A DNA stretch of 64,000 nucleotides. Source: Notolepis coatsorum. Taxonomy: Eukaryota; Chordata; Actinopteri; Aulopiformes; Paralepididae. A model generated the notes under the pieces. It saw only the letters and a program-made list of their open reading frames with translations. It did no database searches and was not told the origin of the DNA. Location of the stretch: assembly GCA_963971535.1 (NCBI GenBank), contig OZ020589.1, forward strand, positions 68,797,239 through 68,861,238. Direction: 5' to 3'. Positions 12,883 through 52,583 of this stretch are shown one piece after another. A program made the translations under genes and the position numbers. Every line of letters begins with the position of its first letter. Within the stretch, counting starts at the first letter, position 1.

Positions 12883-13011
12883 GGACATTTATGTGGCCAG
12901 TTTCGAATTGCAGCCTTCCGTAGGTGCTCTTTAACACAATGTGCACCATTAACGAGTTTACTCGTTATTGGCCGCCAATCGAATAACGAGTTTACTCGTT
13001 TTTACGATCGT

Positions 13012-14443
13012 TGTTGTGAAGGGCCAGATTAAACCGAATATATATATTTATTTATATATATATATTTAATTGTATTTGTATATTCTCTAATATTCCCTGA
13101 TATCCCTTGTATATTCCTTGTACAATATGCATTGAATATCCATTCTAGCCTACTGAACATCCCATAATAGTCTCCATTCTACTATTGGTCGAGACCTTGG
13201 TGCCAGGCTGCCATACCCCTCAGACCCAGTTCAAACGTACCGCTCCACATGTACGAACAAGTCCTAGTTCCGCGTAGGAATCTGGCTACCGCATCACTAA
13301 TGGGACTATTTGTTCATAGTGCGTATATATACTGCGCTACTAAAGTAGGACTTTCTTTCAGTCCAGTTTCTTACCCTCCAATAGAGTCACAGACGTAAAG
13401 CCTCGCCGCGACGCCACGTGTGGGAGTAAGGCCAAGTTCGCCTACCATCGGTATTGAGACATCGTGTATATTAATATTTGAATAGTCATATTTGGCACTA
13501 TATCGTCGAGTTGGACGTAGTCTATTAAGCTAATAATAGTCTGTTAATATATAGTGCTTCGTGCGGTGAGAATACTACCGTAGTCAGTACCCCATCGTTT
13601 CGGGCAGAGAACTGGCTGCTTATCCAGGGTGGTTGACCCCACGTGAAGCTGCACCCGAGGAGCCCCAGAGCCGACGAGCGAGTGGACCTGTATACCGGAT
13701 TATTCTACCGACGACAGCCCGCCTTCCCAGGCACGGATTATGCTTTGTATACTTTGATTATTCCATGGATAAAGACCCCCGACACTGCCGTGTGTTGGAA
13801 CCCCCCCCCCTGGAGAGGACGCAAGGTGAGGAGACGCTCTGCAAGACGAGGTCGCTTCACGTCTCTCCTCCGTGGACCGGATGACGCCGGCCCACAAAGA
13901 GTCCACCTGCTTTCATCTGTGGTCCAAGGATCGCCGGCGCATTGAACGGCACTACAGTGGGTTCACCTGGGATACCCTTGGCCGGATGAGGCAGCCGGAT
14001 TCTACCCCCCCCCCCTTCCTACTCCTGTCGACTTACAAGCGACCGGATTAACCCCCCCTAGTGTGTCCAGTATATAATCATTAAAGTATCATTGCTGTTA
14101 TTCCTTAAACTATTCCAGGTCGTATATGTACCACCTGCGCCTTCAGAGATTGGACATTCTCTATTGATATACCGACGAATACTCTTGCCATAAAAGTGCA
14201 TACTAATTCCATTCATAAATGTGATTGATTTGATTAAGTGCTTGCTCTACACACCATCGCTGTGTAGAAATAAAGACCTATTTCTAATTCGTACATTTGT
14301 GTTGGATCCGTTTCCTCTACGTGACAGTGTTCATCATAATATATTTATGCCGTGTACTGGGTGGCCGAATATTAAGTACAAAGGTAGTGGTAGTAAGTAT
14401 CATATCTAGTAATACAGTCAGGGAATTGTACCCCTCAGTTACA
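13012..14443 (+). repeat. 5' LTR of the BEL/Pao element
   Basis: Begins tgttgtgaagggccagatta and ends …cccctcagttaca. It is virtually identical to 21999-23431. The AT-rich start, the tgcgtatatatactgcgcta stretch near 13320 and aataaag words near 14269 are candidate promoter and polyadenylation signals. Short open frames within it occur in both LTRs and are not treated as genes. Confidence 0.95.
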
Positions 14444-14445
14444 AT

Positions 14446-14462
14446 TGGTCCTTCGAGCCGGA
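14446..14462 (+). promoter_or_regulatory. Primer-binding site complementary to tRNA-Tyr
   Basis: Two bases after the 5' LTR, tggtccttcgagccgga is exactly complementary to the 3' end of vertebrate tRNA-Tyr (…tccggctcgaagga plus CCA). The 17-nt match and the position right after the LTR make this the likely minus-strand priming site. Confidence 0.85.
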
Positions 14463-14487
14463 GGGTAATTAGTGTAATATTAATATA

Positions 14488-15794
14488 GTGTTATTAATAT
14501 TGAAATGGCCTATGATGAACACTCCACGAAACGATCCTCCTAACCAACGCCCGCAGCGCGAACGACGGCTCCCTCAGTACTTAGAGGCTTACGCTGTCAG
14601 TCAACAACCTAGTCTTCTACTAACAGTAAACGCGGTAAAACTAGAAAGTAAAAGTATGTCTAACCCCAACGCCCAGACTACCCCGACCATAGAGGCCCCT
14701 ACGGGCTCTAATGTAACTGACCAAGTTCACGGTGGGGACCAGTGGGAACCAGACATGACTTCACACCCCGCCAGTACTGAAGAAGTAGTCCCCGATGAGT
14801 CCCGGGAGGAATACAACGCTACCGAGAGAGAACTCGGCACGGAAGAAGACGGGGAGAGCACCGTGGAGATAGAGCTCCAAGGCTCCGCAAGGAGTACCCC
14901 GAGGGAAGGCTCCCCTATACAACCGCCTTCCCCCAGCGAGGCAGAGAGGACCCTACAGCAGGCCTTCCTCATCAGCCTGAACGCCGCTGCTGAACGCGAC
15001 CGACTGCAGATCCAGCAGCGGAGCGAAGAAGAGCATATACGTCTAGAACTAAGACGCATTCAGAGAGAAGAGAATGTGGCCCGAGACCGAGCAGACAGCC
15101 AGCGAGCAGCTGCTGGTGCTCTACGGGACGCAGAGCGCGACAGACAGCAAGCGCAACTAATAGAACAGCTGATCAGACGGACAACACCCTCTCCCTCCGC
15201 CAGAGGCTCCAGGAACTCGTCTAGACACACCTCCAGGGCGGCATCCCCTAGCCGAGTAAACAACCCTGAACTTGACCAACAGACGAGGTCTATACCCCCC
15301 CCCACCGGTCCAAGCGAGACCTAGCAACCGGGAAGGAGCAGCATATCCTGTGGAGAGGCTAAACCAGAGACTACAAGCACTGGATGACCTAACTGAAGAC
15401 GAAGAGGAAGAGGAGGAGAACCACACCCGACGACAGCACAGTACTCTACCGGACCAGGAGGTCCGGTACAGCCCAGGCTATACTCCCGCGGAGCTGCGCT
15501 ACAGACCCCCGACTCTATACACGGGTGAGCACGACGCACGACCCGCACCGAGGAACAGCACCTGGACAAGCGGGCCATGGTACACTGCCGGTACCAGCCC
15601 ATACCAAGGAGCGAGAGGAGACTCGCCTAGGAGGCCTCTCCCCCAACGCTCGCCGATGTATCCACAGTCAGCGTCATACATTGGCACGCCTATGGTACCC
15701 GACTTCACCCAAGAGAACCGGGCCCAGTATACGGAACTCCGCATGCCAGTACCGGAGGTTCCAGATCACGCAATTCAACCAGCGGATCACTTCT
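14488..15794 (+). pseudogene. BEL/Pao gag-like region (fossil)
   Basis: A charged, low-complexity polypeptide region rich in R, E, Q, P and S follows the primer site. It includes an arginine/glutamate-rich segment (EEHIRLELRRIQREENVARD) that probably forms a coiled coil. Position between the primer site and the zinc knuckles supports gag. The region stops at the inserted LINE. Broken; treated as a fossil. Confidence 0.6.
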
Positions 15795-18783
15795 TTATCC
15801 ATCGAAAGGATCGGACATCATCAGAGTCCGGTAAACAACGTGGAGGAGGTATTGCCTTCATGTTTAACAAAAATTGGAGTGATCCAACGAACGTGAAGGA
15901 ATTATCCAACCACTGCTCCCCAGAACTGGAATATATAACCATCAAGTGTCGTCCTTTCTTCCTCCCGAGGGAGTTAACGGCGATCGTCCTGGTCGGAGTG
16001 TATATTCCACCGCAAGCCAGCAACAAGGTTGCGCTCTCCAGACTACACGACTAGGTAAATAGAATACAAGTGGCTAACGTTAACGCCGCCATTTTAGTAC
16101 TGGGAGATTTCAATAGCGCCAATCTGAGAAAGGTATTGCCCGACTTCTATCAGCATGTGACTTGCAACACCAGAGGCGGTAACATCCTAGATCACTGTTA
16201 CACGCAATTTAAAGGTGGCTACAAGGCTCATTCTGATAGTGGCTTTGGCAAGTCAGATCACGCATCCATTTTCCTTTCACCAAAGTACAGACAGAGAATT
16301 AAAAGTACTCCCGTAGTCTCGCGAGAGGTGCAGAAATGGGATCTGACGTCAGAAGAGACGATCCGGTCAGTGTTTCACCACACAGACTGGATTGTGTTCC
16401 GCGACACATAACATTAATGCCTACACGGAGACAGTGCTGGACTATGTCTGTACTAGGGTGAAAGAAACAATCCCCACTACCAAAATGAAAGTTTACCCAA
16501 ATCAAAAACCCTGGGTAGACAAATCCGTCCGTGAAGCTCTGAGAGAGCGCACCAAAGCATACAATGACGGCCTAGTGGCAGGCAACATGAATGACCACAA
16601 GGTGGCGCGACACAACGTAAGGAGGACAGTGTCAGAGGCCAAACGGCGCTACAGGGATAAAATTGAACTCCAGTTTGAACAAGCTGACTCTAGAGCTATG
16701 TGGCAGGGGCTCAAAACGATGACAGACTACAAAGGCGCCTCCCTCAAACTGAACAGTGACATCTCCTTAGCAAACGACCTCAATACCTTCTATGCGAGGT
16801 TTGATGCTGGTAATAACAACACCAGCTCACAAGCCTCGGCAATGGGGGGGGGGGGGGGTCGGCTGCTGATGGAGGCGCAGTGTTCAGGGTAACAGAGCAT
16901 GAGGTGAGGCGGACCTTTAAAAAAGTGAATATCAGGAAGGCAGCAGGTCCGGACGGCATCCCCGGCCGCGTCCTAAAAGTCTGTGCCGACCAACTGGCCC
17001 CAGTATTCACTGACATATTTAACCTGTCCTTAGAACAGGCTGTCATCCCCACCTGCCTGAAGAAGTCCACTATTATCCCTGTACCCAAAAAATCCAAGCC
17101 TGCTTGCCTCAACGACTACCGCCCTGTAGCTCTCACCTCCATAGCCATGAAGTGCTTTGAGAAGCTAGTAAAGGGCTACATCTGCTCCTCCCTCCCCATC
17201 AACATGGACCCCCTGCAATTTGCATACCGCCCCAACAGGTCCACGGAGGACGCCATATCCCATGTGCTGCACACAGCAGCATCACACCTGGACAAGAGGC
17301 AGGGGAACTATGTGAGAATGCTATTCATCGACTACAGCTCGGCATTCAATACCATAGTCCCCTCCATACTCATAGCCAAGCTCAGGGACCTGGGCTTGGG
17401 CTATGACCTCTGCCAGTGGGTCTTGGACTTCCTGACTGGCAGACCCCAGGTGGTGAGAGCAGGCAACTGCACCTCCTCATCCATCACCCTCAACATAGGG
17501 GCCCCCCAGGGCTGTGTTCTGAGTCCCCTCCTCTACTCCCTGTACACACACGACTGTGTGGCTCAGCGGAGTAGCAATACAATCGTCAAATTTGCTGACG
17601 ACACAGTGGTGGTGGGCCTGATCTCTGCCAACGACGAGAGGGCCTACCTGGAAGAGGTCAAGGTCCTGGCGGGATGGTGCCAGGAAAACAGCCTCTCCCT
17701 GAACGTCAGCAAAACAAAGGAGATGATTGTGGACTTCAGGAGGTCGGGGGTCAAGGACTACAGCCCCCTCAGCATCGACGGGGCACCGGTTGAGAGAGTC
17801 AACAGCTTCAAGTACCTCGGAGCCTACATATCCGAGGACTTGACATGGACCACACACATTAACAGTGTGGTGAAGAAGGCACGACAACGCCTCTACTTCC
17901 TCAGGCGCCTAAGGAAGTTCCAAGTCAGCCAGAAGATCCTTAAGAACTTCTACTCATGTACAATAGAGAGCATCTTGACCGGCAACATCACCTCCTGGTT
18001 TGGGAATAGCACTGCAAAAGACCAAAGCAGACTACAAAGAGTGACACGTTCAGCCGAACGCACAATTGGAGGGGGGCTCCCCACCCTCCAGAACATTTAC
18101 TACAAGCGTTGCAAGGGCAAGGCTAAGAGAATCATTAAAGACTCCAGTCACCCGAACAACTGCCTCTTCGAACTGCTGCGGTCAGGCAAGCGATACAGGA
18201 GTCTCAAGGCGAGCACAGAAAGACTCAGAAGTAGCTTCTATCCCCAGGCCATCAGGCTGCTAAACGAACAATGAATGAACACTACACAACAACAACCACC
18301 AAACGCACATAGCACACACATCCACACGCACACACTCACTTTAAACAAACACACTGTAGCACCCACTCCACACACTTTATAGCACACACCCACTTTAAAC
18401 AAACACACTGTAGCACCCACTCCCCACACTTTATATTTATGGATGAAGGATTGCACTACAACTCGTACACCTTACTGTAAATTGTACCTAAAATTGTACC
18501 TCATCCCATTTCTGCTTTGCACTAGATAGTACTGTACATTAGTACACTGCATAGTATTGTGTATTGTATATTATATGGTAACTCAGAACATTGTACATAT
18601 GTCTATACCGAACACTGTGACCTCATTTTCTTCTTCTAAATTCATGCTATATTATGTTATTATGTTATTTGATACTATCTTGTCTAGCACAGTCTCTGGA
18701 GCGTAACAGTAAGAAGCATTTTGTATGAAAGTATTCTGTACTTCTGTATGACAACTATTAAAGAACTTGAACTTGAACTTGAA
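15795..18783 (+). pseudogene. L2-type LINE inserted in the BEL/Pao element
   Basis: The LINE starts inside its endonuclease (DRTSSESGKQRGGGIAFMFN near 15807; LEYITIKCRPFFLPRE; VGVYIPPQAS). It continues through a linker (KPWVDKSVREALRERTKAYN near 16507) to [39 protein letters not shown], motif [12 protein letters not shown] (about 17325), [20 protein letters not shown], and catalytic [10 protein letters not shown] (about 17590). The C-terminus [13 protein letters not shown] ends at 18274. The 3' UTR finishes with repeated ttgaac at 18765-18783. Damage: a TAG at 16052-16054, a frame change near 16400, and another near the G run at 16843-16858. The RT frame 16880-18274 (464 codons) is intact. 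5'-truncated, so a dead copy. Confidence 0.88.
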
Positions 18784-21700
18784 TGTGACTCCTTCCCCAA
18801 GCTGAACGCGGAGGAAGCAAGTCAATGGATAAAGTCCAACAAGCGCTGTTTTCGCTGTGCGCGCTCACACATGGCAGCCGAATGCCGCTTAAAGAAAAGG
18901 TGCACCAAGTGCGATGGAGCCCATCTGGACATACTTCACGACAGTAACAGACGGCGCCCTTCACCCGCACCATCCAGCAGCAAAGCGAGCGTCATGTACA
19001 TCGATCACGCCAGCAGCAGTGGAGCCCGAGTACTCCTAAAAGTAGTGCGTGTGACACTAAGCTACCAGAATAAAGTCCTGGACACTTACGCCGTCCTCGA
19101 TGACGGGTCAGAGAAGACCCTGCTGCTCGCCTCCGCTGCGGCCCAGCTAGGGCTGCGGGGAAGCGAAACCCAAATGACAATTCGGACAATAAGACGAGAT
19201 TTGAAGACGATAAAGGGCGAGAATGTCTCATTCTCTATCGCAGCAAGCGGCCAGCCTGAGCGACGGTACCAGATTACAGACGCTTTCACCAGCCAAGAAA
19301 TAGGACTGTCGCGGTACACATACCCCGTCGCCAAGCTGATGGAGAAATATGCACATCTGCGCAAGTTACCGATCCCGCTCATAGACAATGCTATGCCGAC
19401 CCTGTTGATAGGCTCCGACCATGCAGACCTCATTGTCCCGATAGACCGGGTTCATACCGGACCCCGAGGCTGTCCTGCAGCAGTCGAGACCCGTTTGGGA
19501 TGGACTCTCCAAGGCCCGCTCGCCAAATCTCTCAACCGAAGTACAGCCACTAGATGTCTCCACTCCCGAGTCACAGAGGGAGAAACCGCACTCCTGCAAC
19601 ACGTAGAGCGGCTATGGACCTTGGAACAAATGCCCTTTAAGAACGGAAAGAAAGACATTCGCTCTAAAGATGACATTTACGCCATTCACCTCCTCGAGAC
19701 AGGGACCAAGAGAGTCCCGGTCAACGGTGTGTTGAGATACGCCACGCCACTCCTGCGGCGAGAAGGAATGCCTACTTTCCACGCCAAGACAGACGCCACA
19801 GAACGGTACCTGCTGAACACGGAGCGGCGCTTAGCCAAGAACCCCGCCCAAGAGAGTGTATACCGCGCTGAGATTGAGAAGCTCATCACAGCGGGACACG
19901 TCACAAAGATGGACATTAAAGAGGCTGACCAGACCACTGAATCGTGGTACGTGCCTCACCACAAGGTCCATCACAACGGTAAAGACCGCATAGTATTTAA
20001 CTGCAGCTACCAGATCGGATCCCAAAATCTGAATAAAGAGTTACTGCCCGGTCCCACACTCGGCCCCTCCCTACTCGGCGTTCTACTCCGCTTCCGCCAG
20101 GAAAAGGTGGCCATCAGCGGGGACATTAAAGGAATGTTCCTGCAGGTGAGATTAGTAGAGGCGGACAAGCCCCTGTTACGGTTCCTATGGAGAGAGAAGC
20201 CAGGAGATGAGCACCCAGCCATCTACCAATGGGAAGTCCTCCCCTTCGGAACGACGTGCAGCCCCTGCTGTGCTACATTTGCACTACAGAAACATGTAGC
20301 AGAGGACCCAGCAGCGGACGAAGAGGTCCGACACAGCGTAAAGAACAGCTTCTACGTAGACAACTGTCTACAAAGCCTTTCAACCCAGGAAGAAGCCGAG
20401 GCTCTCCTGATTAAACTCCGCGCCTCATTGATCAAAGGCGGCTTTGATCTCAGGCAGTGGGCCAGCAGCGATCCGCAAGTACTGCGCAGCCTCTCCTCCG
20501 AGGACAAGGCAGCCAGCAGCGAGACCTGGATGGCTACAATCCCGGGAGAAGCCCAGGAGATGACCCTGGGATTGGTGTGGCGATTCAAAACAGATTCGCT
20601 TCACTACAGACACAAGCCCCTGACTACGGAGCAGGGAAGGCCGGCGGCGGCGCCGACCACCAGACGGAGTGTGTACACAACACTCGCCCGACAATATGAC
20701 CCGCTAGGATGTATTCTACCGTACACCACCAGGGCAAAAATGATTGTACGAGCATTGTGGGACAAGGACCAGGGCTGGGACGACCCCATTCCCGCACACC
20801 TTGCATCCACCTGGAGAGAGTGGGAGGTGGAGCTCCACTCACTCCCAGGCGTTAATATGCGCCGAAGCTACTTCCCACCCACGGTGAGGCCAGAGACATG
20901 TAAAATGGACTTACACGTCTTCAGTGACGCCTCAGAGGTCGCATACGGATCAGTAGCCTACTTGCGGGCCCAAGAGAAGGGGGGAGAGATCTACACAGCA
21001 TTTGTCCTCGCCCGCTCGAGAATAGCCCCACGCAAGCAACAATCTATCCCACGTCTAGAGCTCTGCGCAGCCCTAGCCGGAGCGCACCTAGCCACGCTCA
21101 TCCAACGTGAGCTCACCATACCGGTGTCTAGAACAATCCTGTGGTCAGATTCCACGACGGTACTCGCCTGGATCAAATCGGACTCATGCAAGTACAAAGT
21201 CTTCGTGGGAGTCAGAGTCACCGAGATTCAAGACTTAACCGAAGAGTTAACCGGAGAAACAGAGTGGCGCTACGTTGATACAAAACAGAACCCAGCTGAC
21301 GTCATCACCCGGGGGATGCCCCTGGATGACCTCACCCGTCGCAATGTCTACAGTGACGGCCCCGCATTCCTAAGACTCCCGGAAGGACAGTGGCCCACGC
21401 CTATCCCGAGGAAAGCCAGTCAGGAGGAGGCTGAGAATAAGAAGCCTGTGTTCTGTGGATTGAGCACTGTTATCTCCGCAGACCCCAACACACTCCTGAT
21501 GGGGCGGCTAGATCCTGCATTACCCCAGACAATGTACCGGCCTGAAGAAGCGAACGGCCGACGAATGTGGAGGTACAGCCAAGTGTTAGCCGACAAGTTT
21601 TGGAGCAGTTTCCTACTGCACTACCTACCGTCTCTACAGACCCGCCAGAAGTGGGTAAAGGAGAGAGACAATTTGACAGAAGGAACAGTCGTCATGATTA

Positions 21701-21860
21701 TTGATCAATCACTGCCCAGAGCTATGTGGCCGGCCGCGTAAGCAAAGTGATCACCGGTGCCGACGGCAAGGTCCGAGCAGCTGAAGTGCTTGTCCAGGGT
21801 CGCACTTACACCCGTCCCGTGGCGAGGCTCATAGAACTGCCCCGACTCCCAGACACAATC
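18784..21860 (+). pseudogene. BEL/Pao pol region (fossil)
   Basis: After the LINE, BEL sequence resumes with two zinc knuckles (CFRCARSHMAAEC then CTKCDGAH, about 18847-18925). The protease core YAVLDDGSEKTLL follows (about 19090), then RT with SGDIKGMFLQVRL and the YVDN catalytic block (20353-20364). The RNase H starts with VFSDASEVAYGS (about 20917), including WSDSTTVLAWIK near 21142. A terminal segment (YLPSLQTRQKWV) resembles the end of a BEL/Pao integrase region. The order knuckle-protease-RT-RNase H-integrase and the YVDN variant are typical of BEL/Pao. Treated as a fossil. Confidence 0.88.
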
Positions 21861-21985
21861 GATGATGACCATGACCCTATAACCCTATGACTTTGTGAAG
21901 TTGACTGACCCCTACAGCAAACCCTTATGTGTAAATAGACAACGCGATTAATCTGTCTCTGTTTAACTGATTAGGTCTGGGACCA

Positions 21986-23431
21986 ATCAGGGGGTGGCTG
22001 TTGTGAAGGGCCAGATTAAACCGAATATATATATTTATTTATATATATATATTTAATTGTATTTGTATATTCTCTAATATTCCCTGATATCCCTTGTATA
22101 TTCCTTGTACAATATGCATTGAATATCCATTCTAGCCTACTGAACATCCCATAATAGTCTCCATTCTACTATTGGTCGAGACCTTGGTGCCAGGCTGCCA
22201 TACCCCTCAGACCCAGTTTAAACGTACCGCTCCACATGTACGAACAAGTCCTAGTTCCGCGTAGGAATCTGGCTACCGCATCACTAATGGGACTATTTGT
22301 TCATAGTGCGTATATATACTGCGCTACTAAAGTAGGACTTTCTTTCAGTCCAGTTTCTTACCCTCCAATAGAGTCACAGACGTAAAGCCTCCCCGCGACG
22401 CCACGTGTGGGAGTAAGGCCAAGTTCGCCTACCATCGGTATTGAGACATCGTGTATATTAATATTTGAATAGTCATATTTGGCACTATATCGTCGAGTTG
22501 GACGTAGTCTATTAAGCTAATAATAGTCTGTTAATATATAGTGCTTCGTGCGGTGAGAATACTACCGTAGTCAGTACCCCATCGTTTCGGGCAGAGAACT
22601 GGCTGCTTATCCAGGGTGGTTGACCCCACGTGAAGCTGCACCCGAGGAGCCCCAGAGCCGACGAGCGAGTGGACCTGTATACCGGATTATTCTACCGACG
22701 ACAGCCCGCCTTCCCAGGCACGGATTATGCTTTGTATACTTTGATTATTCCATGGATAAAGACCCCCGACACTGCCGTGTGTTGGAACCCCCCCCCCTGG
22801 AGAGGACGCAAGGTGAGGAGACGCTCTGCAAGACGAGGTCGCTTCACGTCTCTCCTCCGTGGACCGGATGACGCCGGCCCACAAAGAGTCCACCTGCTTT
22901 CATCTGTGGTCCAAGGATCGCCGGCGCATTGAACGGCACTACAGTGGGTTCACCTGGGATACCCTTGGCCGGATGAGGCAGCCGGATTCTACCCCCCCCC
23001 CCCTTCCTACTCCTGTCGGCTTACAAGCGACCGGATTAACCCCCCCTAGTGTGTCCAGTATATAATCATTAAAGTATCATTGCTGTTATTCCTTAAACTA
23101 TTCCAGGTCGTATATGTACCACCTGCGCCTTCAGAGATTGGACATTCTCTATTGATATACCGACGAATACTCTTGCCATAAAAGTGCATACTAATTCCAT
23201 TCATAAATGTGATTGATTTGATTAAGTGCTTGCTCTACACACCATCGCTGTGTAGAAATAAAGACCTATTTCTAATTCGTACATTTGTGTTGGATCCGTT
23301 TCCTCTACGTGACAGTGTTCATCATAATATATTTATGCCGTGTACTGGGTGGCCGAATATGAAGTACAAAGGTAGTGGTAGTAAGTATCATATCTAGTAA
23401 TACAGTCAGGGAATTGTACCCCTCAGTTACA
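21986..23431 (+). repeat. Polypurine tract and 3' LTR of the BEL/Pao element
   Basis: agggggtgg just before 21999 is the likely plus-strand primer (polypurine tract). The LTR runs 21999-23431 and matches 13012-14443 almost base for base. Confidence 0.92.
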
Positions 23432-24509
23432 ATCGTTATTTCCTTTATTCGCTATATCTATTCATAATTCATAGCCGCAGCCTCTGGTATAGTCTTCAGA
23501 CCCTGTCTGAGCTGGCAGACTGTCAACACCGCCCTCTACTGCCAGGCGGAGCTATTGCATCTTATTGAAAATGGGCTTGTGTCTTTTAGGAGGCGATCTG
23601 AGCCGGGCGGGCAGGGTTTAAATATTCAGGCGAGCCACTTCTATACAACGATGGCATCAGTAACTCCGCCCGCCCGCCCGTCATTGTGAAACGGTCGGTA
23701 GTGTGGTGCGGACCTCCACAAGCATTATTTGGAATTGCGATAAGATATTTGGATTATCTCTTTTGCGTTACATCAGATACAAGGTAAGAACATCATATAT
23801 GAATTTGATCGTTGATCTGACATTTATTTCTACCGCGATCAAAGCTATCTGTGCTAGCGTTGATTTCAGGATGATTAGATGAGCAACCAAAAAATTACAA
23901 CATGATGACTGGATTACAGTCAAATGCATTTTCTCGCCTTTTCATGGAATTACTGAAAAACACCCAAACCATACTCTATCGATGAAAAAACAATCCGTCT
24001 CAGCAATGTTGACTAGAAGCAGCTCACTGAGACCCAACGGCGTTATTAGACCCATAGATATAATATAAGATATATTTTAAGCACTCGCAAATGTCACAGT
24101 CTAAAACTATATCCATTGAATAAAGACCTGGCAATGAATGGGGTATCAGCGCCCCCTGCTGTGGTGGTCAATGTGTTAAGAGCGTTTTTGAATGTGGGTA
24201 GGGATTCACATTTTTTTACGGCTGTGGGTAGAGCGTTCCACATTGTTGTGGCATAATTGCGAAATGTGTTTAGTCCCTTGTTTGTGCCGAATCTGGGTTT
24301 CACATAGGGCTTGGCGATGGCAAGAAAAAAACTCTGACTATTAAAAAAGGAAAATCAGATTTACGATTTTGCTCCCGATCCGATCCCGATCATGTGATTT
24401 TGAGTATCTACCGATACCAATATTTCCCGATCCGATCAATTTTTTTTAAACATATATATATATATATTTTTTTTTTTATTCAACCAACATGACCATGTTC
24501 ACATCCTTA

Positions 24510-25468: not shown

Positions 25469-25527
<59 letters not shown>

Positions 25528-34882: not shown

Positions 34883-36346
34883 ATCCTAGGCAGGGGCGGA
34901 TTTAGGATTGTAGGAGATCCGGGGCTTAGCCCAGATGGGCCCCCCCCCTTTTTTTATTTTTTTTTATTTTATTTTTTATTTTAATAAAAAAAAAATGGGC
35001 AGGCAAGGGGTGGTTTGGAGGGGGTCAGGCACGACACCCTCCACAACAGATTTTTTTTGAATTTAATGAACCTGTACGTGCAATTTCCTGCAATATAGAG
35101 CCTTAAATCTTGACCAATAAAGCTGCTCTTTTCACTATAAAACTCAGTTAACCATAACGTAGTTATGGTTAGATTTATATATTGGGGGGGATATATCATA
35201 TTTTTCATATAATCAAAAAGTGGTGGAGCAAGATCATACCTTTGCTCCCCCAAGTTCAATAGTGGGAGAGCAGAGATGCTCCGAATGCTCTTATGGCCAG
35301 GCGTCTATGATTCACTGATACAAAGTAAAATAGTGCAGTGCAATAAAATAGTTAGTAAAATAGAATAAAATAATGCAATAGTGCATTGCAATAAAATAGT
35401 TATCATCGTATTTTTTCGGGAGGCCGGTGAGTGTGAATGAATGAATGAATGAAAACTTTATTTAACAGATTGCAGAATGGGTACAATACAGTACGGCTCA
35501 ATACATACAATTGTTAAGGGGATGCAGACCTGAGAAAGACGTTTGTCTTGTTTCCATCAGGGTCCCCCATTTTCAATTCATATAGACATTTATGACATAC
35601 ACAACATACATGACATTTATGGCATAGGGACATATAGGTATTTAGTACTGATACATTTGTGACATAACGGTATTCAAATATACAGTACTGTTACCCCTAG
35701 ATCCTGACAGAGTATATACATATGATGGGGAGGGGACTGTACATTAGGAGGGGGTGGGTGGGTGGGAGGGAAATATACATACGGCGGGGAGGGAATATAT
35801 ACATGCGGTGGTGAGGAGACTGTCTATTAGGAGGTGGTGGGGGTTTTGGGCATTTACGGTGGCCAGTTTCTAATTGCAGCCTCCCGTAGGTGCTCTTTAA
35901 GAGCGGTTTTGAATGTGGGCAGGGATTCACATTCCTTTACAGCTTTGGGTAGGGCGTTCCACATTGTTGTGGCATAATTGCGAAACGTGTTTAGTCCCTT
36001 GTTTGAGCCGAATCTGGGTTTAACATGATTTGTTGAGCTTCCTCTGGTGTAGTGGTTGTGGTATTCACTGAGTGCATTACAGTAGTCGAGTTGGCTTGAG
36101 ATAAAGGCATGGATCTGGTTTTCAGCGTCCTTTTGATTTATAAATGGCCGTACTTTAGCTATGTTTCTAAGGTGGAAGAATTAAGTTTTTGTCAACTTGT
36201 TGATTGTGATTTAAAGCTTAGGTCTGAGTCTACCATAACACCAAGACTTAACTCACGCAAATACAGTTAGCAGCTGGATAGACCACAGATGGAAATTAGC
36301 TTCTTCTAAATCTGGTGCAAACATATTTTCATGTAACAATGATGAA

Positions 36347-39554: not shown

Positions 39555-40510
39555 TTAACACAATGTGGACCGTCCACGAGTTAACTCGTGATTCGATTCC
39601 ACCCGTTGAGGACCAGAGCCACGAGTTAACTCGTGGCGAGTTGTTATCGTTTTATTCCATATTTATAACGCTATTAACGTCCGCGATCGACATGCAGGAC
39701 CTACCCACATATTTGATTTTCGAAACATGCAATACCGGCCAGATCCGCTTAGGGGCGCCATCGCTCCACTGCAGTATCATTGAGGGCGATTGAAAAAAAA
39801 ATTCTTTTCACTGTCTGTGGGCGTTTCATATGAGCCTCGGTTCCAAACGAAGACCCTCCATCTTTGATCCCGTTACCGAACGCATATTTCAGCCTGGAAT
39901 AATGGGATTTATGATTAGCCAATGGACATATCGATCTACCAGATTCCGATGACTAATGACGAAATGCTGCCGGCGATCACATGGCCTGACGGTAGGATAC
40001 TATTCCCCCAAATTACAGCTGGATTGGACATTGTTTTAAAACCTAACGTGATCGATCAGTGACATTGGCTACCTGAACGCACACTGTATTGCTAATCAAT
40101 AATACTAATCGGCGTTCCCCGCCGCCCCCATTTCATCCATAGATGCACTGTAATAGTCCGGATGCTACGCAGTTTGTTTTATTTCATTCGTAAACATACA
40201 GCAGAAATGGCGTTTGATATAACAGCGCCAACGTTTAGCCTATTATCTAGCTCCCGGGAAAAAACGAGACGAGACGAAAAGTGCGATAAACCTTATATTC
40301 ACGACGCTATAAAATGACAACCAACCGATGGATTTTTATTTTCTTTAAGCCATTATGAAGGCACGATTTATGCACTCAAGTGACAATGAGAATGGACAGA
40401 TAGCAATACTATAAATTATATATATAGCTCTTAGAAAGTACATCGGTTTGTAAACAAACCTGTCCTCTGGCCTATAAATCTGCGCAAGACTGTGGTCGCC
40501 AAAGTGTTAA
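39555..40510. mobile_element. TTAA-family element copy B (956 bp)
   Basis: TTAA at 39555-39558 and 40507-40510. Ends ttaacacaatgtggacc and ggtcgccaaagtgttaa are inverted repeats. The target site caattgTTAAgggg is visible unfilled in other LINE-A copies, for example 10909. Two perfect palindromes are present: cacgagttaactcgtg (39575-39590) and ccacgagttaactcgtgg (39619-39636), 45 bp apart. The interior aligns with copy G. No transposase frame. Confidence 0.9.
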
Positions 40511-41263: not shown

Positions 41264-41313
41264 TCCCCCATTTTCAATTCATAGTGACATACATAACATA
41301 CTACAAGTATATA

Positions 41314-43668: not shown

Positions 43669-43673
43669 TTCTC

Positions 43674-44155
43674 TATACGGTGGACGTTGTTGCAATGTAT
43701 TGGGGCGGAACAGGGTATTTTATGGTCATATTTAGTACATTGTCATGGAATACACCGCTTGGAAACGAGGCTGGCTAGGATAATTAGCTTGCACGGCGCT
43801 ATTTTAGTTTACCTGCCAAGTTGGTGTGTGTTTTGAATTCTGAGGGTAACTGTTATAGTAGTGTGGGGTATACGGTGGACGTCGTTGCAATGTATTGGGG
43901 CGGAACAGAGTATTTTATGGTCATATTTAGTACATTGTCATGGAATACACCGCTTGGAAACGAGGCTGGCTAGGATAATTAGCTTGCACGGCGCTATTTT
44001 ACAGTTTACCTGCCGAGTTGGTGTGTGTTTTGAATTCTGAGGGTAACTGTTATAGTAGTGTGGGGTATACGGTGGACGTCGTTGCAATGTATTGGGGCGG
44101 AACAGAGTATTTTAGGGTCATATTTAGTACATTGTCATGAGATACTCCGCTTGTT
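43674..44155. repeat. ~196-bp tandem repeat, 2.4 units
   Basis: tatacggtggacgtcgttgc starts units at 43674, 43869 and 44066. Units are over 95% alike by eye. The unit contains ggctggctaggataattagc and does not resemble any other element in the window. Confidence 0.92.
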
Positions 44156-44392
44156 CTGGCTAACTGCTAACGTGCGCGGACTGATGACGACATCAACTCG
44201 ACTCTCGAGACATTCGCAGCAGCAAAACAAGTCTATTAATAGCCCGTCCATCGGCGCCGGGCATAAAAAGTTAATTAAACTTGACAGACATTATATCAAC
44301 GATAATTATCGATATCGAGTTTTATGAAAATAATTTTATAATTTTATCGCGGTAACTTTTTTGGCCATATCGCCCAGCCCTAGTACTGATAT
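44156..44392. mobile_element. hAT right end (…atcgcccagcccta)
   Basis: Ends ggccatatcgcccagcccta at 44392, as in the copies at 40556 and 51268. The matching left end is absent. Confidence 0.6.
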
Positions 44393-44879
44393 GCGAAAAT
44401 TAACTAAATTGGTTTTATTTCTATAAAAAAGAAAGACAGCTTGACTTAAAGAATCTCAGTTGACTGAGGGGTCTGACTGATATTGTTTATGAAGTCCGAT
44501 AATATTGTTTTATGAAGTCCGATGGGTTTCTAATAGATATGTTTAATTCACTTTCTTTGCCTTATGTTAATGTGTGAAGCTATAGAGAAATATTGATATA
44601 TTTTTACATCTTTCTATAGTTTTCACCTAATGATGCTATAGTTACTCATTCACAGCCAGCCGTTCTATCCATCCTTGTACTAAAAAAAGAATCCAATTAT
44701 CTGATCGCCATTCCAGTTATCCACAGCGATCCTGTCTCCGACGTTATTGGGCATTGCACATGAACGGGCAGGCGGGGTCAGTTGTCCAAGCCATCACTAC
44801 AAGCGCATGTTTTGCCGGAGTGTTTAGGACCCGCCCCCACACCGCAGCTTGGTAGAGAAAATAAACTACACCGTTTCTA
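44393..44879. other. No recognised feature
   Basis: AT-rich sequence without repeat ends or coding signal that I recognise. Confidence 0.4.
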
Positions 44880-45113
44880 ATGGAGTGCAATAGCGGCCAA
44901 AGGCGTTAGAGGGCGGTATAAGACCATCTGCCAGCTCAGACACATTCAGTACAGCATGCACAAGGTGCCCCGCTGAATTATGAATGGCAATAGCGAATAA
45001 AAGAAATACCGTGAGAAATACGTAGATCTACGTTTCCGGCACTCAACCGTCGGGCGACAGAAACATAGTTCTACGTTAACGGCACCCAAAGGGATAACCC
45101 TGAGGCTTGTTAA
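44880..45113. mobile_element. TTAA-family fragment copy E, palindrome-bearing end
   Basis: TTAA at 45110-45113. The phrase gaattatgaatggcaatagc and gcgaataaaagaaatacc match copies A and C. It carries a perfect palindrome acgtagatctacgt (45020-45033) and a slightly degraded one, acatagttctacgt (45063-45076), 43 bp apart. Orientation is opposite to copies A, B and D. Confidence 0.65.
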
Positions 45114-45399
45114 AACAGTGTTCCATGTAATGCTTAAATTACAATATGAAGGATTATTGGCAAGGAAATGTCTATCTTTTTAACAGTAAGAGAAAAAGTA
45201 TATTAGTAATCAATTCACCTCAAACTCTGCTCATCTTCCCCTTCATGGCTAAGGTGAAAGGAGTTTTCTAAGAGGGAGTCTCTGGGAATGCATCTACAAT
45301 AGGGACTATAATTAGTTTACCGGTGCTTGCAATATAAATCGTGAGCTGTCAGTATTGTTGTACTTTGTTGAGTGTGAAGAGCTAACATTGCTAGCATTA
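45114..45399. other. Second copy of a dispersed block
   Basis: 45220-45290 (ctgctcatcttccccttcat, ggctaaggtgaaaggagttt) matches 8640-8730. It continues after the hAT at 46483-46640, matching 11575-11670. No coding signal. Confidence 0.5.
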
Positions 45400-46482
45400 G
45401 CAACATGCAGGGGGCGAAATTTAAGCCCGCCGCCCGCCAGGGGCGCTCAGTTTTTACCTTTGGCGCTTGCCACTGAGAGGTCTGCCCGCTGTGTGGCGTG
45501 TAGACGTGTAGTTCATAACGATACTCTTATTTTGAAAATCTGTGCGGGTCTCATTTCCGCCCCAAGCGCAGCTAGTCATAATATCGATGGCTCCGGCAGT
45601 TAGCAACATTCGGTTCGTATGATATTCTTATTTTGAAAAAAACATGGCAACGAGTCATATCCGCCCAGCCGGGCCAGCCCTGCAGCGGGATACTATTGGC
45701 TTCTGCTCGTATCAACACAGAGGCAGTCTGCTCTAGTCTAGATCGGACCTCCATGAGCTACCGTTACTGTTTAAACAATGACCCAGTCAACTATTCACTT
45801 TTAGTGTAATACATGACGAGGCATTGTCTAACGGTATCTAGCTGGCTAGCTGCTGATATCAACAAATGCTCCAGCAATAGTCGACTCGAGTGCATAATAC
45901 CTCCGTTCCCTCGTTAGCTAGCTCACGTTAGCTAGCTCACGTTAGCTCTATATGTCCCAGTAAACTAAATTGTCTTAACGTTATCTAGCGGGCTAGCAGT
46001 AGCTCCTGATATCAATGTCTTATAACATTGATTCAATGCGTATTCTAGCTGAGGGCTTGATGAATGTGATTTGACCAAAGAAGTTGAACCGTAACATTAT
46101 ACCAATAGGGTCCAGCTGCAGCGCCGGAGAATCCTTGCATGCTGAATGTAGAGTATTAGTATAGGGTCTAGCTGCATCGCCGGAGAATCCTTGCTGGAGC
46201 TGGAGGCTACTCAAGTATACACAGACAGTGGAGCTGTTTGCAGATAGCGAGCATTTTGACTTATTGCGTGGTGGCGATGTCTCGCAGATAATACAACTAC
46301 AAGTATGATTATATAATATATATTTTATTTAAAAACATTTTTTTTATATAAAATATATATATATATTTTTTTTTAATCAAAAAAAATTGGCAGGTAAGAA
46401 ATATGCTTGGCGGGTAGATTCTTCCCATCTACCCGCCACTGGCCGGTGAGTCAAAAAGTTAATTTAGCTCCATGGCAACATG
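45400..46482. mobile_element. hAT-like element (45408-46474) with 8-bp duplication
   Basis: gcaacatg flanks at 45400-45407 and 46475-46482. The ends cagggggcgaaatttaa and gttaatttagctccatg are weakly inverted (about 12 of 17). The interior has tandem gttagctagctcac and T-rich tracts; no transposase. Confidence 0.65.
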
Positions 46483-46679
46483 TCCAAAATGGTGCCCAGA
46501 GTGTTGAAGCAAGTGCTGTGTAATATTAGAGAGTTGCTTCCTTGCTCACACAAAACACTCTTGCTGCAGGTGTTGCATTTTGCTGTATTGTTATCAAGCA
46601 TTTGCTACCGTCAGCCATGGTCCGGTAAGTAAACAAAAAGTCTCACATGCTTTGGTGACATAAGCAACGTTAGGTTGTA

Positions 46680-47995
46680 ACCCAGTTGTACAGTAAATTA
46701 CCAAGTATGGCTTTGTCAGTATTCCAATGTACAGTGCAGGGTTTCCGTTAGAAAAAATTGTTGCCGGCCTCAGTGTCCGGTAGATTTCAATCTACCGGTC
46801 AAATGAGAGAAATTCCGGTCAGAGTTTATTGAGCTTAAAAACAATTGATAGGCAAAAGAATGACAACAAAACAAAAGAATGACATCATCAAGGCATGTAG
46901 ATTTATAATATTTTTACTTAAAACTAGGCTACTTTTGCGTATAAAGTCATTATATTCCAAATAAAATAAGTCCTGAGACTCGTGCTGCTGCCGACTTTAA
47001 ATCAAATAGGTGTCTGTGGGCAGTCGCCCGACATTAATAAACAACAGTCTGTTATAATCACATTTTTATGAGCTAACGAATTCCGTTATATTGGACATTT
47101 GTATTAATTATATCAAGCGAAGAACTGAGAAATTTGACAGAGAGAGACGGCAACATTATCGTGGGTTTGCGTGACGACTCTCTCTCCACCTCCCAATGAC
47201 TTATTTGCGAGAGTATGTTGATGCAAAGCAGCAGATTCAGCAATTATTGGCTCTTTTCTGGGGACCGCACAGCAGCGCCCCCCACCCAACATTGAATTGA
47301 AAATGGCTGAATTGGAGTACTGCTGGAGTACTGCATTGTGCTGCTGTTGCTCCGGCTCTGCAGCTTCACAAAAGTTCGCACACCCAGCACTAAGCTCTCG
47401 CTGACAACGTCGTTGTCATTATTAGAAGCAACGATGAAACAAATGTAATGATTGTTTCGTTCATCGCATAGGCTATTTAATTTTAGCCTATTTTAATACA
47501 ATTCAAATAATCAAATTGTGCTTAGACTCAGGGAATTATTTTCACCGGACATTAAGACCGGAGAGATTAAATATGTCGGACTTCAACAGATTTTGCCGGT
47601 CAAATACCGGTAATTACCGGCTAACGGAAACGCTGGTACAGTGTACAGTGCCCCCCCCCCCCCCCCCCCCACCAACCCCCCCCCACCCACCCAACCTCCT
47701 CCAATGTACAGTTTCTACGTCAAATGTATATACACTCTTTTTCTGGACACTTTTTGTATCACAAACAGTACTGTATTTGCAAATCTGATATGTCATAAAT
47801 GTATAGATGTAGCAGTACTGTCTATCTGTATGTCATGTATGTCATATATGTTATGATGAATTGAAAATGGGGGACCCTGATGTAAACAAGACGAAAGTCT
47901 TTCTCTGGTCTGCATCCCCTTAACAATTGTATGTATTGAGCTGTACTGTACCCATTCTGCAATCTGTTAATAAACTTTTCAATCAATCAAAGGTC
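46680..47995 (+). pseudogene. LINE-A copy 8, 3' UTR split by a hAT
   Basis: gttgtacagtaaattaccaa at 46686 matches copy 1 at 2210. The hAT occupies 46737-47635. The LINE resumes with gtacagtgcccccccc and runs to aataaacttttcaatcaatc at 47995. C runs here are long (about 20) and probably length-variable. Confidence 0.85.
46729..47643. mobile_element. hAT element (46737-47635), 899 bp
   Basis: Ends cagggtttccgttag and ctaacggaaacgctg are flanked by gtacagtg at 46729-46736 and 47636-47643. Subterminal repeats ccggtcaaat and ccggtaattaccgg are present. No transposase frame. Confidence 0.92.
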
Positions 47996-49817
47996 CCAGC
48001 GATAGGTCCCGACTCCTTTTTACAACTTGGCATTATGCTCAATGCAGTTCACTTGAGCCAGACAGAAATATGCTGCAGTTACAGTAGGATTCTATAAGCC
48101 AATTCAAAAGTCACATTTCTTATCAATCAGTTCTTGAATATTTGGTACTGGTTCTCAACACCTGACCCTATTCACACATATTGGAATTGGTATAATTTGG
48201 AGCCAGAAATCTCCTATTGGTCTAGCCCTACTTCAAATGGTGGAACTTTTTAATCTTGAGTCATCTGTCCTGATATATCACCAGCAGGGACAGGTGGGGT
48301 TTAACATAAAGTGACGTTGATTAGTTAGGAGTTAGGAGTCAGCGCTTATTGCTGGCTCTCCTGACCAACGCCTTGATTTTAGTTTAGCAGGCTTTGATCC
48401 GCCTAAGCGCGACACAAATCCCCTAATACCTCTTTATATCCCAATCATCACTCAACAGCAAGCCTCCATGCCAAGTCCAATCCCACATCAGACAAACGCA
48501 ATACTCTTCTGTATATTTGGCATAATACACAACCACACACACACACACACAAAGACCCACACACATGTTTACACGTGCACTTTCCCATTTTCTCTCGGGC
48601 ATATGTACCTACCTGTAGATGCCAAACAAACAAAGATAGAAAGACACACACACACACACACACACACATAGCGGTACTCAAGTTGATTTGGAATGAATGG
48701 GAGTGATGCCCAGTAAGAAGGTCAACCCCTTCCCTCGTCTATTTCTCTTTTCTTTTTCCTACCTCCTGGGAAATGATATATCTCTCATTATGGCCAGTAG
48801 AACACCGGGATGTAAGGAATCTCTGTTCCAGTTTCAAGTTCCACCTCCAACTGCAGCTGCTGTTGTTGTTGTTGTTGTTGTTGGTGGTGAGAGGGAGATA
48901 AGATCAGGCTGGGTCACCTGTGGATCGGACAAAACAACTAATAAAGAATCTGCCATCTGTTCCTTTTAAAACCTTTCTTCAAGGTTCAAGATGTTGTGCC
49001 ATGTATCACAATTGCAGTCTAGTGGTTCTCAAACTGTGTGTAATACTATTTGGGAGGTTGTGCGAGATGATTTATGTGAAGAAATATATTTATAATATAT
49101 TATCTTATATATTGTTATGGTTTCTTATTTATGCAACATCAAGCTTATTTGAGTAGGTGATGGCGGTGAAGCAGCTTCACTTCCTTTCCAACCTGTTCCC
49201 ACCCGTGTGAATATGGCCAATAGGGTGTGTGACTGTGTGTGTGTGTCAGCGGGCCCCCAAGTAGGAGCCTTTGGTTTTTAGGCTTCGACTGTTGTGGAGC
49301 ACAATGCTGTATAAGTGGTGCAGAGAAGAGCGATGCACCGACACTACTTTTCAACTGCCGACACTGACGGGGGGGCGAAGGGGGCAGAGTTTGAAATGGG
49401 TACACTGTGATTGATATGGAAATCCATTTCTCTCCATTAGAGATATGCATGGGGAAAAGTGCCAACATTTCAGTTTCGTTATCCGATTTTAGCACTGGGG
49501 GAAATTCTCCCAATACCAAATTTATATTACAGCCTGGCCCGGTATTGGTATCGGTGCTTCCCTGGCAGAGGGTGGCAAAATCACATTTTTGACGGTAAAA
49601 CAGATTGGCACACGACAAGTCCCTCGTGGTAGCAATCTGGTGTGATAGATTTGAACCATATTTGGATTTGAATGCATGACAGAAGGGCTTCCATAAGTCC
49701 TCGAGGGCAGCATGCATCTGTGTTAGTAGCCAAAGCTCAAAGACAGCCGGCTCACTCTAAAACACCAGGCCAAAGAGAGCGAGGGAGCTCACAGCCTCAC
49801 ACTGTAGTGTTTTTCCA

Positions 49818-49857
<40 letters not shown>

Positions 49858-51259
49858 TTCTCCATTCTAGTAGGTGTGGTTCAGGCATGAGTGTTCATGC
49901 AAAAAATGCAAATTCTGCGCAATCTGCTGGATGTTACTCAACACAGAAATAGAACAGGCAGACTTGATATAACATGCATTTGGTTCAGAAAAACACAGCA
50001 TAATTCCAAAGTGAGTCCATTGCAAATTACCTATGAAGGGTGAGAGAAGAGGGTGTGACTGACGAAGAAATTGCACACGTGACTAGAACGGACCGGGCCA
50101 GGCAAACTGCTGTGAACCACTCAGAGACACATGAAGGACAAAGGAGGAACATTCTCCTACAGTACACCACCGTTGCCAGGAAAGTTTGGACAACACAGTC
50201 ACAAAATTGCCACAGGAACAGAGAGTTCCTGTTACAAAAACATATTACCCCAAACTCTGACGTCAAATTACAATAAAAGGGACTATGACAAAATTGGAGT
50301 TAGGACATCAAATATAGGAGGTAGTACGACACAATATTAGTATGTCTCGTGAGAGTTGCCCACAGGAAATTGAGTTATGCATGTGTTGGGTTAGTTTTAC
50401 TTCCTGCTTTAGGTTATGCTGTGGAACAACGATGGTGAGCTATTGCATAAGCAACTCCACACCAGATACATGCACACACACACACACATAATTTGGACAT
50501 GGGAGTGTAGAAACCAAAGGGGTAACAGGGGCATGCTCCCCCAGATAAATCTTTTTCAAAAAACAGCTCTGGAATACTCATTTCTAGTGACTTTTGGAAA
50601 TCAGACAAAATTGACCAGCCAGGAGCCCAATAGTTCCATTTCATAAATGAATGAAAGGTCCAAAGATACATGTTATAAGAAAATAGGCTACATCTGTTCA
50701 TCGACAGAAAACATCTAGGATTAAGATCTGTCTGACACCTTCAGATATGTAGGCTAATCGTGGAACGCGGAATGTCTTCTACACAGCTCTCATTCCAAAC
50801 GATCACATATCTTGCTGAGTGGACTTTAAAAGTTAGCTCTTGTCACATTAGCTTTTAGCTAGCACAAAGTCTGGTTTTGATTGAAGAGAGTTGTCAACTA
50901 AATAGTTTCAAGTCACATTTGGGGCTAAAGTTAGCTGGCTTGTAAAACACTGACCAGCATCACCAGCTAGCAACTGCAAGCATAGCATTACTCTATTACT
51001 CTTTATTTACGGACAATAAACAAATCCTCAACTGAACCACATGAACCTATTTGGAAAGGAGAGAAAACACGTTTACCCGTTTGCACTTTTAGTGAATGGA
51101 AGCACCATTTCCTCACCCTTTTTTTGTAGCCAAAGGCAAATAACTGCTTTTTAGGCCTTAACACATTGACAAGACAGGGAGGTGGGGTTGTGGCCCTTGC
51201 ACAGCATACGTGGGGCCCTAAGCGACTTGCATAGTGTGGTTATAGGGTGGATCGGCCCT
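47996..51259. other. Mostly single-copy intergenic sequence with microsatellites
   Basis: (ac)n at 48534-48550 and 48644-48668, (tgt)n near 48864-48885 and (gt)n at 49825-49856 are the visible structures. gtggttctcaaactgtgtgt at 49022 resembles a worn hAT-Charlie end. The longest open frame (49145-49717, minus, 190 codons) has no recognisable domain and no homology I can see. I see no exon with convincing splice sites. Confidence 0.5.
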
Positions 51260-51267
51260 GCAATCAG

Positions 51268-51863
51268 TAGGGCTGGGCGATACAACGATAATTATCGCGA
51301 TATATTTTAATAATCTATATCAATTGATAATTAAAAAAAATCTAAAAAGTTGCCTGCAACTTAAAGTAATGGCTTTGCTTGTCCGAATGACAATACTGAC
51401 CAAATTGAGATTTATTTGTCTCTTGTCCATTTATTTTGTTTGCGTTCTAATTTAAAATACAGTTTGAAAACATCTGTACACAGTAGGCTATGTGTGCTAG
51501 CAGAGCTAGTCTCCAGTCGCAAATCACGGTGCACATGGTTTTTTGGTTTGTCCACCAAAAAAGCGCCAAAAGATAGAAAAGAAACGAGCAGAGCCAGAAC
51601 TATTCAACTCCCCTGGAGCCACAGCCAGCAAAGAAGCTTGTTTACTTTCGCTTTCAAACCAGCTGCAGCCTGAGAACTGGTGTGAGGGGCTGTAACACTA
51701 AAGATGGCGGCAACAACAAAGAATTGCTGCAAAATAAACATACCGTATAAAAAAATTATATATATTTGTAATACTTATAACAATATCGATAATTATCGAT
51801 ATCGAGTGATATGATAACATTATCATATCGTTATATAATTTTTGGCCATATCGCCCAGCCCTA
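51268..51863. mobile_element. hAT element of the tagggctgggcgat family, 596 bp
   Basis: Ends tagggctgggcgatacaacg and ggccatatcgcccagcccta. The middle is related to 40556-41255 but in the opposite direction relative to the ends. The flanks (gcaatcag and ctgcattg) do not give a clean duplication. Confidence 0.8.
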
Positions 51864-52149
51864 CTGCATTGACAAAAAAACTTTCCTAAGGCGAAAGTGA
51901 AGAGAATCGAGCAACCAGTTTTCGGAGTACCATGGCTTCCATCGGTCACAATATGACTTGCGGCATGTTTTAGATATGTTGAAAAGTGAAGTGTTCTTAG
52001 AAATTCAGTACAATGAAAATTGTGTTGATGTGGCATGACCCAAAATGTTGTTTTGGCTCAAATGTTTATGTTAGTATGCAGCCCAATCTCACTAATGTAG
52101 GTTATGTTATAGCCATAAGTAATATATGAATGTATTGTATCAAAAATAT
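51864..52149. other. No recognised feature
   Basis: No coding or repeat signal recognised before the TTAA fragment. Confidence 0.4.
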
Positions 52150-52583
52150 AACATGTGTACATATTTCTCACCTTCTTTGCAGGGCTATAACTTTTTAAAT
52201 ATTATAGCTATATCGATTACTATGGCCCATTCAACATCGGGTATCTATCGTTCCGGATGTGGGAACGTTATATTTTTCCATTCATACATTATCGTGTTAG
52301 TACCGTCGTGAATATAAGTATGTTTTTGGAGTGTATAGCAGTAATTCCTAGAATGCGAGTTTAGAATGGAGTGCAACTCGCCCGAAATCCACCAGGCGGC
52401 GGTATTGAGGCGTTGAAATATCAGACCGGGTCCAGCTGGCTCCCGGAGCCTTCCTGGATGAATTATGAATGCCAATAGCGAATAAAGGAAATAACGATCA
52501 TAAAAACGGGTAAACTCATTGTTGGCATTATTAGATTGGCGGGCAATAACGAGTAAACTCGTTTTTGGCGCAGGCTGTGTTAA
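52150..52583. mobile_element. TTAA-family fragment copy C, reverse orientation
   Basis: TTAA at 52580-52583. Reading leftwards: aacgagtaaactcgtt (52548-52563), then aacgggtaaactcatt (52505-52520), then the uninterrupted target atcgttatttcctttattcg that in copy A holds the BEL element. The far part (ctttgcagggctataacttt… atggcccattcaacatc) matches copies D, F and G. The other end is truncated near 52150. Confidence 0.75.

Follow-up and report, generated by a model that had tools for sequence, protein, structure and literature searches.

In the genome of Notolepis coatsorum (GenBank assembly GCA_963971535.1), a stretch of 64,000 nucleotides on contig OZ020589.1 (positions 68,797,239 to 68,861,238 of the forward strand), here called the window, contains five related transposable-element copies, A to E, each with two palindromes, P1 and P2, near one TTAA-bounded end. 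By homology, these copies very probably belong to the piggyBat-type branch of the piggyBac superfamily, with P1 and P2 being two docking sites for the transposase on the left end. A TTAA target duplication and a PF13843 transposase within an element carrying such ends, by which membership of the superfamily is judged, were both found. The left-end structure is ordinary for its branch. New is a within-genome series of linked half-sites, in which the two palindromes of a lineage agree more than expected by chance.

Paired palindromes in the window copies

The copies and their palindromes are as follows, with coordinates in the window.

12931..24179, plus strand: copy A, a probable piggyBat-type element, TTAACACA...TGTGTTAA, delimited by the TTAA duplication and an empty site
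13012-23431: BEL/Pao long terminal repeat (LTR) element splitting copy A, placed by its LTR junctions and a 5-bp duplication, ATCGT
12951..12966, plus strand: P1 of copy A, AACGAGTTTACTCGTT, preceded by ACCA, not GCCA
12985..13000, plus strand: P2 of copy A, same sequence as its P1, with the spacing of 34 bp arising through a 9-bp deletion
35880..35920, plus strand: empty TTAA site of the copy A insertion (TTAA at 35897-35900), located within another copy of the host repeat
39555..39700, plus strand: left end of copy B (39700 is an arbitrary limit), with GACC replacing both GCC boxes
39575..39590, plus strand: P1 of copy B, CACGAGTTAACTCGTG
39620..39635, plus strand: P2 of copy B, the same 16 bases as its P1, inside a perfect 20-bp palindrome at 39618-39637
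52168..52583, minus strand: copy C, of which the left end was placed, at 52583
52548..52563, minus strand: P1 of copy C, AACGAGTTTACTCGTT on the element strand
52505..52520, minus strand: P2 of copy C, AATGAGTTTACCCGTT, two changes from the AACGAGTTTACTCGTT common in its relatives
9180..10121, plus strand: copy D, 942 bp, TTAACCCATT...AATGGGTTAA
9200..9215, plus strand: P1 of copy D, worn; ATCGCTGTTCAGCGTT in 12 of 20 fetched relatives
9243..9258, plus strand: P2 of copy D, ATCGCTGTACAGCGTG
44880..45097, minus strand: left end of copy E (inner limit arbitrary), tip worn to TTATCCC; TTAACCCTTTGGGTGCC in relatives
45062..45077, minus strand: P1 of copy E, AACGTAGAACTATGTT on the element strand
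45019..45034, minus strand: P2 of copy E, AACGTAGATCTACGTA on the element strand

The palindrome pairs reported in a preliminary description of this DNA were recovered at their places in all five copies. P1, said there to start exactly 20 bp from the TTAA in A, B and C, does so in D and E as well, so that in 5/5 copies it begins at nt 21 counted from the first T of TTAA. The described spacing between P1 and P2 was also found, namely 43 bp in C, D and E, 45 bp in B and 34 bp in A. The value in A reflects a derived deletion, since nearly all other scored matches to the first 81 nt of copy A are longer (85-90 bp in 38 of the 39 others, 80 bp in one). The element tips, which had been taken as shared, are so in part: TTAACACA is present in A, B and C only, whereas D has TTAACCC and E the worn TTATCCC (TTAACCC in its relatives). 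The empty site of copy A within the window showed that TTAA is the target duplication.

Copies A and D, for which both ends are known, are too short to encode their own transposase. For the left end of copy B, 39 further scored copies with an identity of 97-99% were identified. Copy C is related to a family of short elements, many of them about 0.95 kb long, from which it differs by an internal deletion; the matches of its relatives fall in two blocks several hundred bp apart. That P1 of copy D was palindrome-free from the start is ruled out by the 12 of 20 relatives which carry a palindrome there. Fragments related to copies C and D are located at 7963-8067 and at 1319-1792, the latter ending in TTAACCCTTTGATTGCC on the minus strand.

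The left-end frame and its abundance

Copies C, D and E have a common left-end frame, in which TTAAC (worn in E) is followed by 9 nt, a GCCA or GCCG box, 2 nt and P1 at nt 21-36, and then by 2 nt, a middle box (ATTGCCCGCCA in C and D), 10 nt, a second GCCA or GCCG box, 2 nt and P2 at nt 64-79. The boxes are altered in A (ACCA as the first box) and in B (GACC boxes). For the search of the 3.42-Gb genome, a pattern was used which runs from the right CG of P1 through ATTGCCCGCCA to the second GCCA and excludes the families of B, E and element L072, which have another middle box. This one form of the frame gave 3,185 exact matches in total, 1,293 (636+657) with a base other than T before the right CG of P1 and 1,892 (958+934) with T, while the reversed patterns gave 0 exact matches in the same genome.

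Left ends were fetched for 20 copies of the L072 family, 20 of the D family, 40 mixed copies (five of them of the E family), 20 of the class with T and 30 loci near copy C; those taken from genome pattern matches were hand-picked for variety from the first places listed, all on C1. In total 137 left ends were assembled, of which 123 with a TTAAC-like tip were kept and 14 left out. About one quarter of the 123 are close relatives of copy C.

At least 7/8 pairs are symmetric in P1 of 41% and in P2 of 31% of the 123 left ends, compared to window backgrounds of 0.8% and 1.3%, respectively. P1 was found at offset 20 in 81/83 left ends having at least six symmetric pairs, and P2 at offset 63 in 69/93 and 64 in 17/93. 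A CG is present at nt 23-24 in 106 and at nt 33-34 in 112 of the 123, and the period of the units of box and palindrome is 43-45 bp across the left ends examined. Two of the copies, A and B, were detected in the window itself by a strict scan for CG-anchored twin sites, together with a tandem array at 59.8 kb, the other three copies being too worn for it; 60 block-shuffled windows contained 0.03 twins on average, with a maximum of 2. Chance palindromes are ruled out by this control and by the symmetry above background. An argument from the constancy of the middle box was dropped, since many copies were fetched with a pattern requiring that box.

In the families examined, the palindromes are confined to one end, as had been described. 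No palindrome was identified at the right ends of A and D in the window, of L072 or of 17 C-family copies; in the C family, for which 29 loci were tried and 19 right ends obtained, 17 of them looking correct, the search was for a CG-anchored palindrome within 110 nt of the right end.

Half-site types and symmetry

Within the one frame, the half-site types CGAGT, CGCTG/CGCTT, CGTAG, CGCC, CGGC and CGTAAT were identified. In the C family, many copies have AACGAGTTTACTCGTT at both P1 and P2. The D family has ATCGCTGTTCAGCGTT at P1 in 12/20 copies and ATCGCTGTACAGCGTG at P2 in most, and in the E family AACGTAGAACTACGTT and AACGTAGATCTACGTT are present at P1 and P2 in 3/5. Further lineages pair AACGCTTTAAAGCGTT with CTCGCTGTACAGCGTT, or have CACGTAATATTACGTT at P2, and L161 has the asymmetric AACGGCGTAAATCGTT at both places, identical in 16/16 bases. 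The half-site changes while the inner CG mostly stays, since the palindromes differ between families and the CG is kept in 106 and 112 of 123 left ends.

Symmetry exceeds chance (P1 2.83 vs 1.70 and P2 3.24 vs 1.75 of 4 pairs, with offsets partly chosen by symmetry). The earlier statement that symmetry is kept while the sequence changes does not hold universally, and perfect symmetry as a rule is ruled out by the L072 and L161 types.

Covariation of the two palindromes

For the unfiltered test, 85 copies of at least 95 nt were grouped into 34 clusters (95% identity outside the palindromes); the 38/123 shorter copies excluded were mainly the fetched relatives of L072 and D. At fixed places, P1 and P2 share 4.79 of 8 inner bases, compared to 2.87 after shuffling, and with P2 shifted by 1-2 bases to its CG the values are 5.85 and 3.20 of 8, with p at the floor of 5e-5 in these cluster tests. 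The 7 nt before the boxes, compared in the 43-bp register, covary too, less strongly (3.32 vs 2.65 of 7, p at the same floor). A filtered test with 103/123 copies, from which 20 without both anchors or a box were excluded, copy A and L041 among them, gave 6.59 vs 3.31 in 29 clusters, and 12 lineages hand-picked for variety gave 6.67 vs 3.29. For copies found via the base in P1, a base other than T in P1 goes with one other than T in P2 in 27/31 and T with T in 12/14 (Fisher p 4.5e-6; 45/55 copies informative, 10 without anchor left out).

Such agreement might go back to a few founders with already-alike twin sites, covariation then reflecting shared ancestry and no present coupling. This is consistent with P1 and P2 being largely fixed within the C, D and E families and with the independent decay of single copies (C, D and E). 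However, several half-site types occur in the one frame, and P1 and P2 are alike in at least 6/8 inner bases in 10/12 hand-picked lineages. Coupling thus seems to have acted at several switches, and descent alone is an improbable explanation.

Transposases of the piggyBat type

A search of the genome with the PF13843 profile yielded 116 scored places of 2,365 first-look candidates. Thirty PF13843 loci form two groups with about 30% identity between them, and group I has a piggyBat-like CRD, a zinc domain, wherever the CRD was read. Ends of the kind described here could be linked to three lineages of group I. Element L072 (6,009 bp, both ends found) has an open PF13843 transposase, read as L033 (PF13843 6.2e-82), and the left-end frame with AACGCCTTACCACGTC as P1 and GACGCCGTACCACGTC as P2. 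The L022 element, tied to L078 by position, has GACGTGTTAACACGTC as P1 and a destroyed P2. The third, L159a at C1:179292696, has AACGCTTTACAGCGTC and GACGCTGTACAGCGTC, its transposase being tied by position. On the minus strand of L159, from about 2813, a second twin-site element with half-site CGAGA adjoins the left end of the autonomous element.

No frame was found in the 3 kb upstream of L009 and L016, and for the predicted left ends of L021, L031, L035 and L038 the tips were not reached. Twin-site matches in L024, L026-L029 and L036 were rejected, as they look like coding repeats.

L033 matches piggyBat (PDB 9c0f) both in the core (1.5e-86) and in the CRD (1.8e-12; 4.9e-100 for the two stretches), and T. 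ni piggyBac (6x67) in a single stretch ending before the CRD (1.6e-36). For L034 the values are 1e-101 for piggyBat vs 1.7e-34 for T. ni piggyBac. The Pfam family zf-Tnp_2 stays just below its cut-off (23.5 vs 24 bits). In piggyBat, R543 and E545 contact C19, G-19 and C-20 (PMC11707139, PMC13405395), which correspond to the CG at nt 23-24 and nt 33-34 of the left ends here, and this R-x-E pair is kept in 11/13 CRDs read, the exceptions being L031 with M-S-E and L038 with R-S-G. The dimeric protein site proposed earlier is supported by homology, namely by the piggyBat CRD dimer at the position of P1 and the homologous CRD in the frame-bearing element. A new TTAA superfamily without known relatives was rejected, the transposase and layout being of the piggyBat type.

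The second group, represented by L025, matches piggyBat in the core only (3e-44) and T. ni piggyBac at 1.3e-30; the label "T. ni-like" was dropped for it, L025 being closer to piggyBat. Its members L023-L029 and L036 have proteins 97-100% identical, and in most of them the domain is free of stops, suggestive of recent activity.

Proposed mechanism and the cause of linked changes

On the model of the piggyBat complexes, a first transposase dimer would bind box 1 and P1 at the tip and cut, while a second, non-cutting dimer would bind box 2 and P2 about 43 bp inside. Both dimers would bend the left end, and the right end would offer boxes without a palindrome. A 2026 piggyBat preprint reports a tetramer in which one dimer lies outside, on P1, and the other inside, at P2 (piggyBat papers PMC11707139, PMC13405395). 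Each palindrome would consist of two half-sites, each a CG plus 3-4 variable bases; the R-x-E pair in the CRD would recognise the CG, and the variable bases differ by lineage. If the preference drifts, selection for binding may draw P1 and P2 to the same sequence, usually to symmetry, since all four half-sites would meet the same protein.

The linked half-site changes may stem from CRD specificity, from homogenisation or from both. Both had been suggested in the preliminary description; of the change in step, the agreement of P1 and P2 was found, and a change of protein specificity would be one possible cause of it. It is rather doubtful, and put forward tentatively, that the CRDs of several piggyBat-type lineages have shifted to half-sites of their own, with P1 and P2 changing along every time, so that transposases and ends form private pairs. 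If true, such pairs would evade cross-mobilisation as well as titration by older, short copies, and a natural, readable code would lead from CRD residues to half-site bases 3-6.

Several observations weigh against a selective reading of the series or against parts of the piggyBat assignment. If selection acted only on the palindromes, covariation of the bases before the boxes would not be predicted. Between L021, L022 and L033 the CRDs differ at just 6-8/67 positions, although the half-sites of their lineages are CGCTG, CGTGT and CGCC/CGTGG, so that recognition of the inner bases may be loose. The pairing of half-site and CRD is thin, with both ends and the element's own CRD read for L072/L033 only. 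Symmetry is not always kept, since the L072-type and L161-type lineages are consistently asymmetric although P1 is like P2, and L041 has CGAGT in P1 vs CTAGT in P2. The permutation p-values are optimistic and overstate independence, because the lineages share ancestry. As an argument for piggyBat, the best structure match is weak alone, because the distant L025 group also matches piggyBat best.

Some of these points would be expected if the sites were still CRD sites but slippage or gene conversion copied sequence between the two units, which are 43 bp apart, the arms templating each other and the protein tolerating the outcome. Copy tracts would account for the covariation of the 7 nt before the boxes and of the 2-nt spacer (1.06 vs 0.74 in the 43-bp register), tolerance for the near-alike CRDs, and copying for the identity of the asymmetric P1 and P2 in L161 and their likeness in the L072 type. 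However, the palindromes covary more (5.85 vs 3.20 of 8) than their neighbours (3.32 vs 2.65 of 7), the fourth box base shows no covariation (0.68 vs 0.64, p 0.29), and the CG anchors keep their place. Homogenisation is possible, if somewhat unlikely.

Other elements in the window

The LTRs of the BEL/Pao element within copy A are 99.65% identical. The element has domains for a Pao peptidase and a reverse transcriptase and encloses, at 16817-18274, a reverse transcriptase frame of the LINE type. Two inverted-repeat pairs, at 60399-60844 and 6575-7010, are bounded by TTAA but differ in sequence from the copies above; their tips match in 16/16 and 15/16 bases, and they are possibly other TTAA elements.

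Significance

Knowledge of the piggyBat transpososome, with two palindromes on one end, comes from one element. The frame, present in thousands of copies and with many half-sites, suggests that the two-palindrome architecture is general in the piggyBat branch. The copy series separates nearly fixed bases (CG) from variable ones and shows the tie between P1 and P2. Together with the transposases, it could yield a code for the specificity of a zinc domain that is of interest in genome engineering.

Comparison with known systems

The preliminary description knew of no piggyBac-like family with such palindromes. This was wrong, since they have been described for T. ni piggyBac, human MER85/PGBD3 and piggyBat (PMC7351741, PMC3459987, PMC11707139). 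For covariation of two palindromes within a genome, no description was recognised in the literature searched, in which subscription literature is thinly covered.

In T. ni piggyBac, a palindromic internal repeat near the left tip is the CRD site and binds a dimer of the CRD (PMC7351741), which resembles the arrangement proposed here. This system differs in having one copy per end, whereas the right ends examined here are without a CG-anchored palindrome, in an unrelated half-site, TGCGT (PMC3459987), in a different CRD fold (PMC11707139) and in the weaker sequence match, which ends before the CRD. MER85/PGBD3 likewise has an imperfect 16-bp palindrome, located 3 bp inside the 5' terminal inverted repeat and essential for transposase binding. 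Its half-site, however, is GTTCCA; MER85, a miniature inverted-repeat transposable element, has a single palindrome, and full-length PGBD3 has three copies, the extra ones near the open reading frame (PMC3459987).

The closest system is piggyBat from Myotis lucifugus. Its left end has box motifs at bp 11-16, 55-60 and 99-104 with a palindrome after each, P1 comprises bp 19-30 after TTAA, and the right end is without a palindrome (PMC11707139); the palindromes are bound by a dimer of its CRD (PMC11707139, PMC13405395). Counting TTAA, P1 is therefore centred at nt 28.5, on the same base as here. Shared further are the TTAACAC tip, the left-end-only palindromes, a unit period of 44 bp (43-45 bp here), the box motif 3 bp before each palindrome, the homologous transposase core and CRD, and the half-site CGAGT, at the same bases as in copies A-C. 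P1 of piggyBat, AACGAGTTAAGTCGGC in the left-end oligo in Table 1 of the preprint (piggyBat papers PMC11707139, PMC13405395), matches AACGAGTTTACTCGTT in 12/16 bases at equal coordinates. Binding of the palindromes by a host protein, for example a repressor, in place of the transposase is very improbable, given that their position, their restriction to the left end and their half-site match those of the piggyBat CRD site and that they differ between lineages in one host. Nothing in favour of such a protein was found, although no search aimed at it was made.

In piggyBat the box is GCGGGA, whereas here it is GCCA, GCCG or an altered form. The elements described here are thus relatives within the branch and not piggyBat itself, because their box is mostly GCCA or GCCG. 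In addition, piggyBat has a third unit, the left ends here having been examined as far as about nt 110, and its palindromes are imperfect, whereas some here are perfect. Unlike in piggyBat, many copies here have an additional box between P1 and P2, and many half-site types are found together in one genome.

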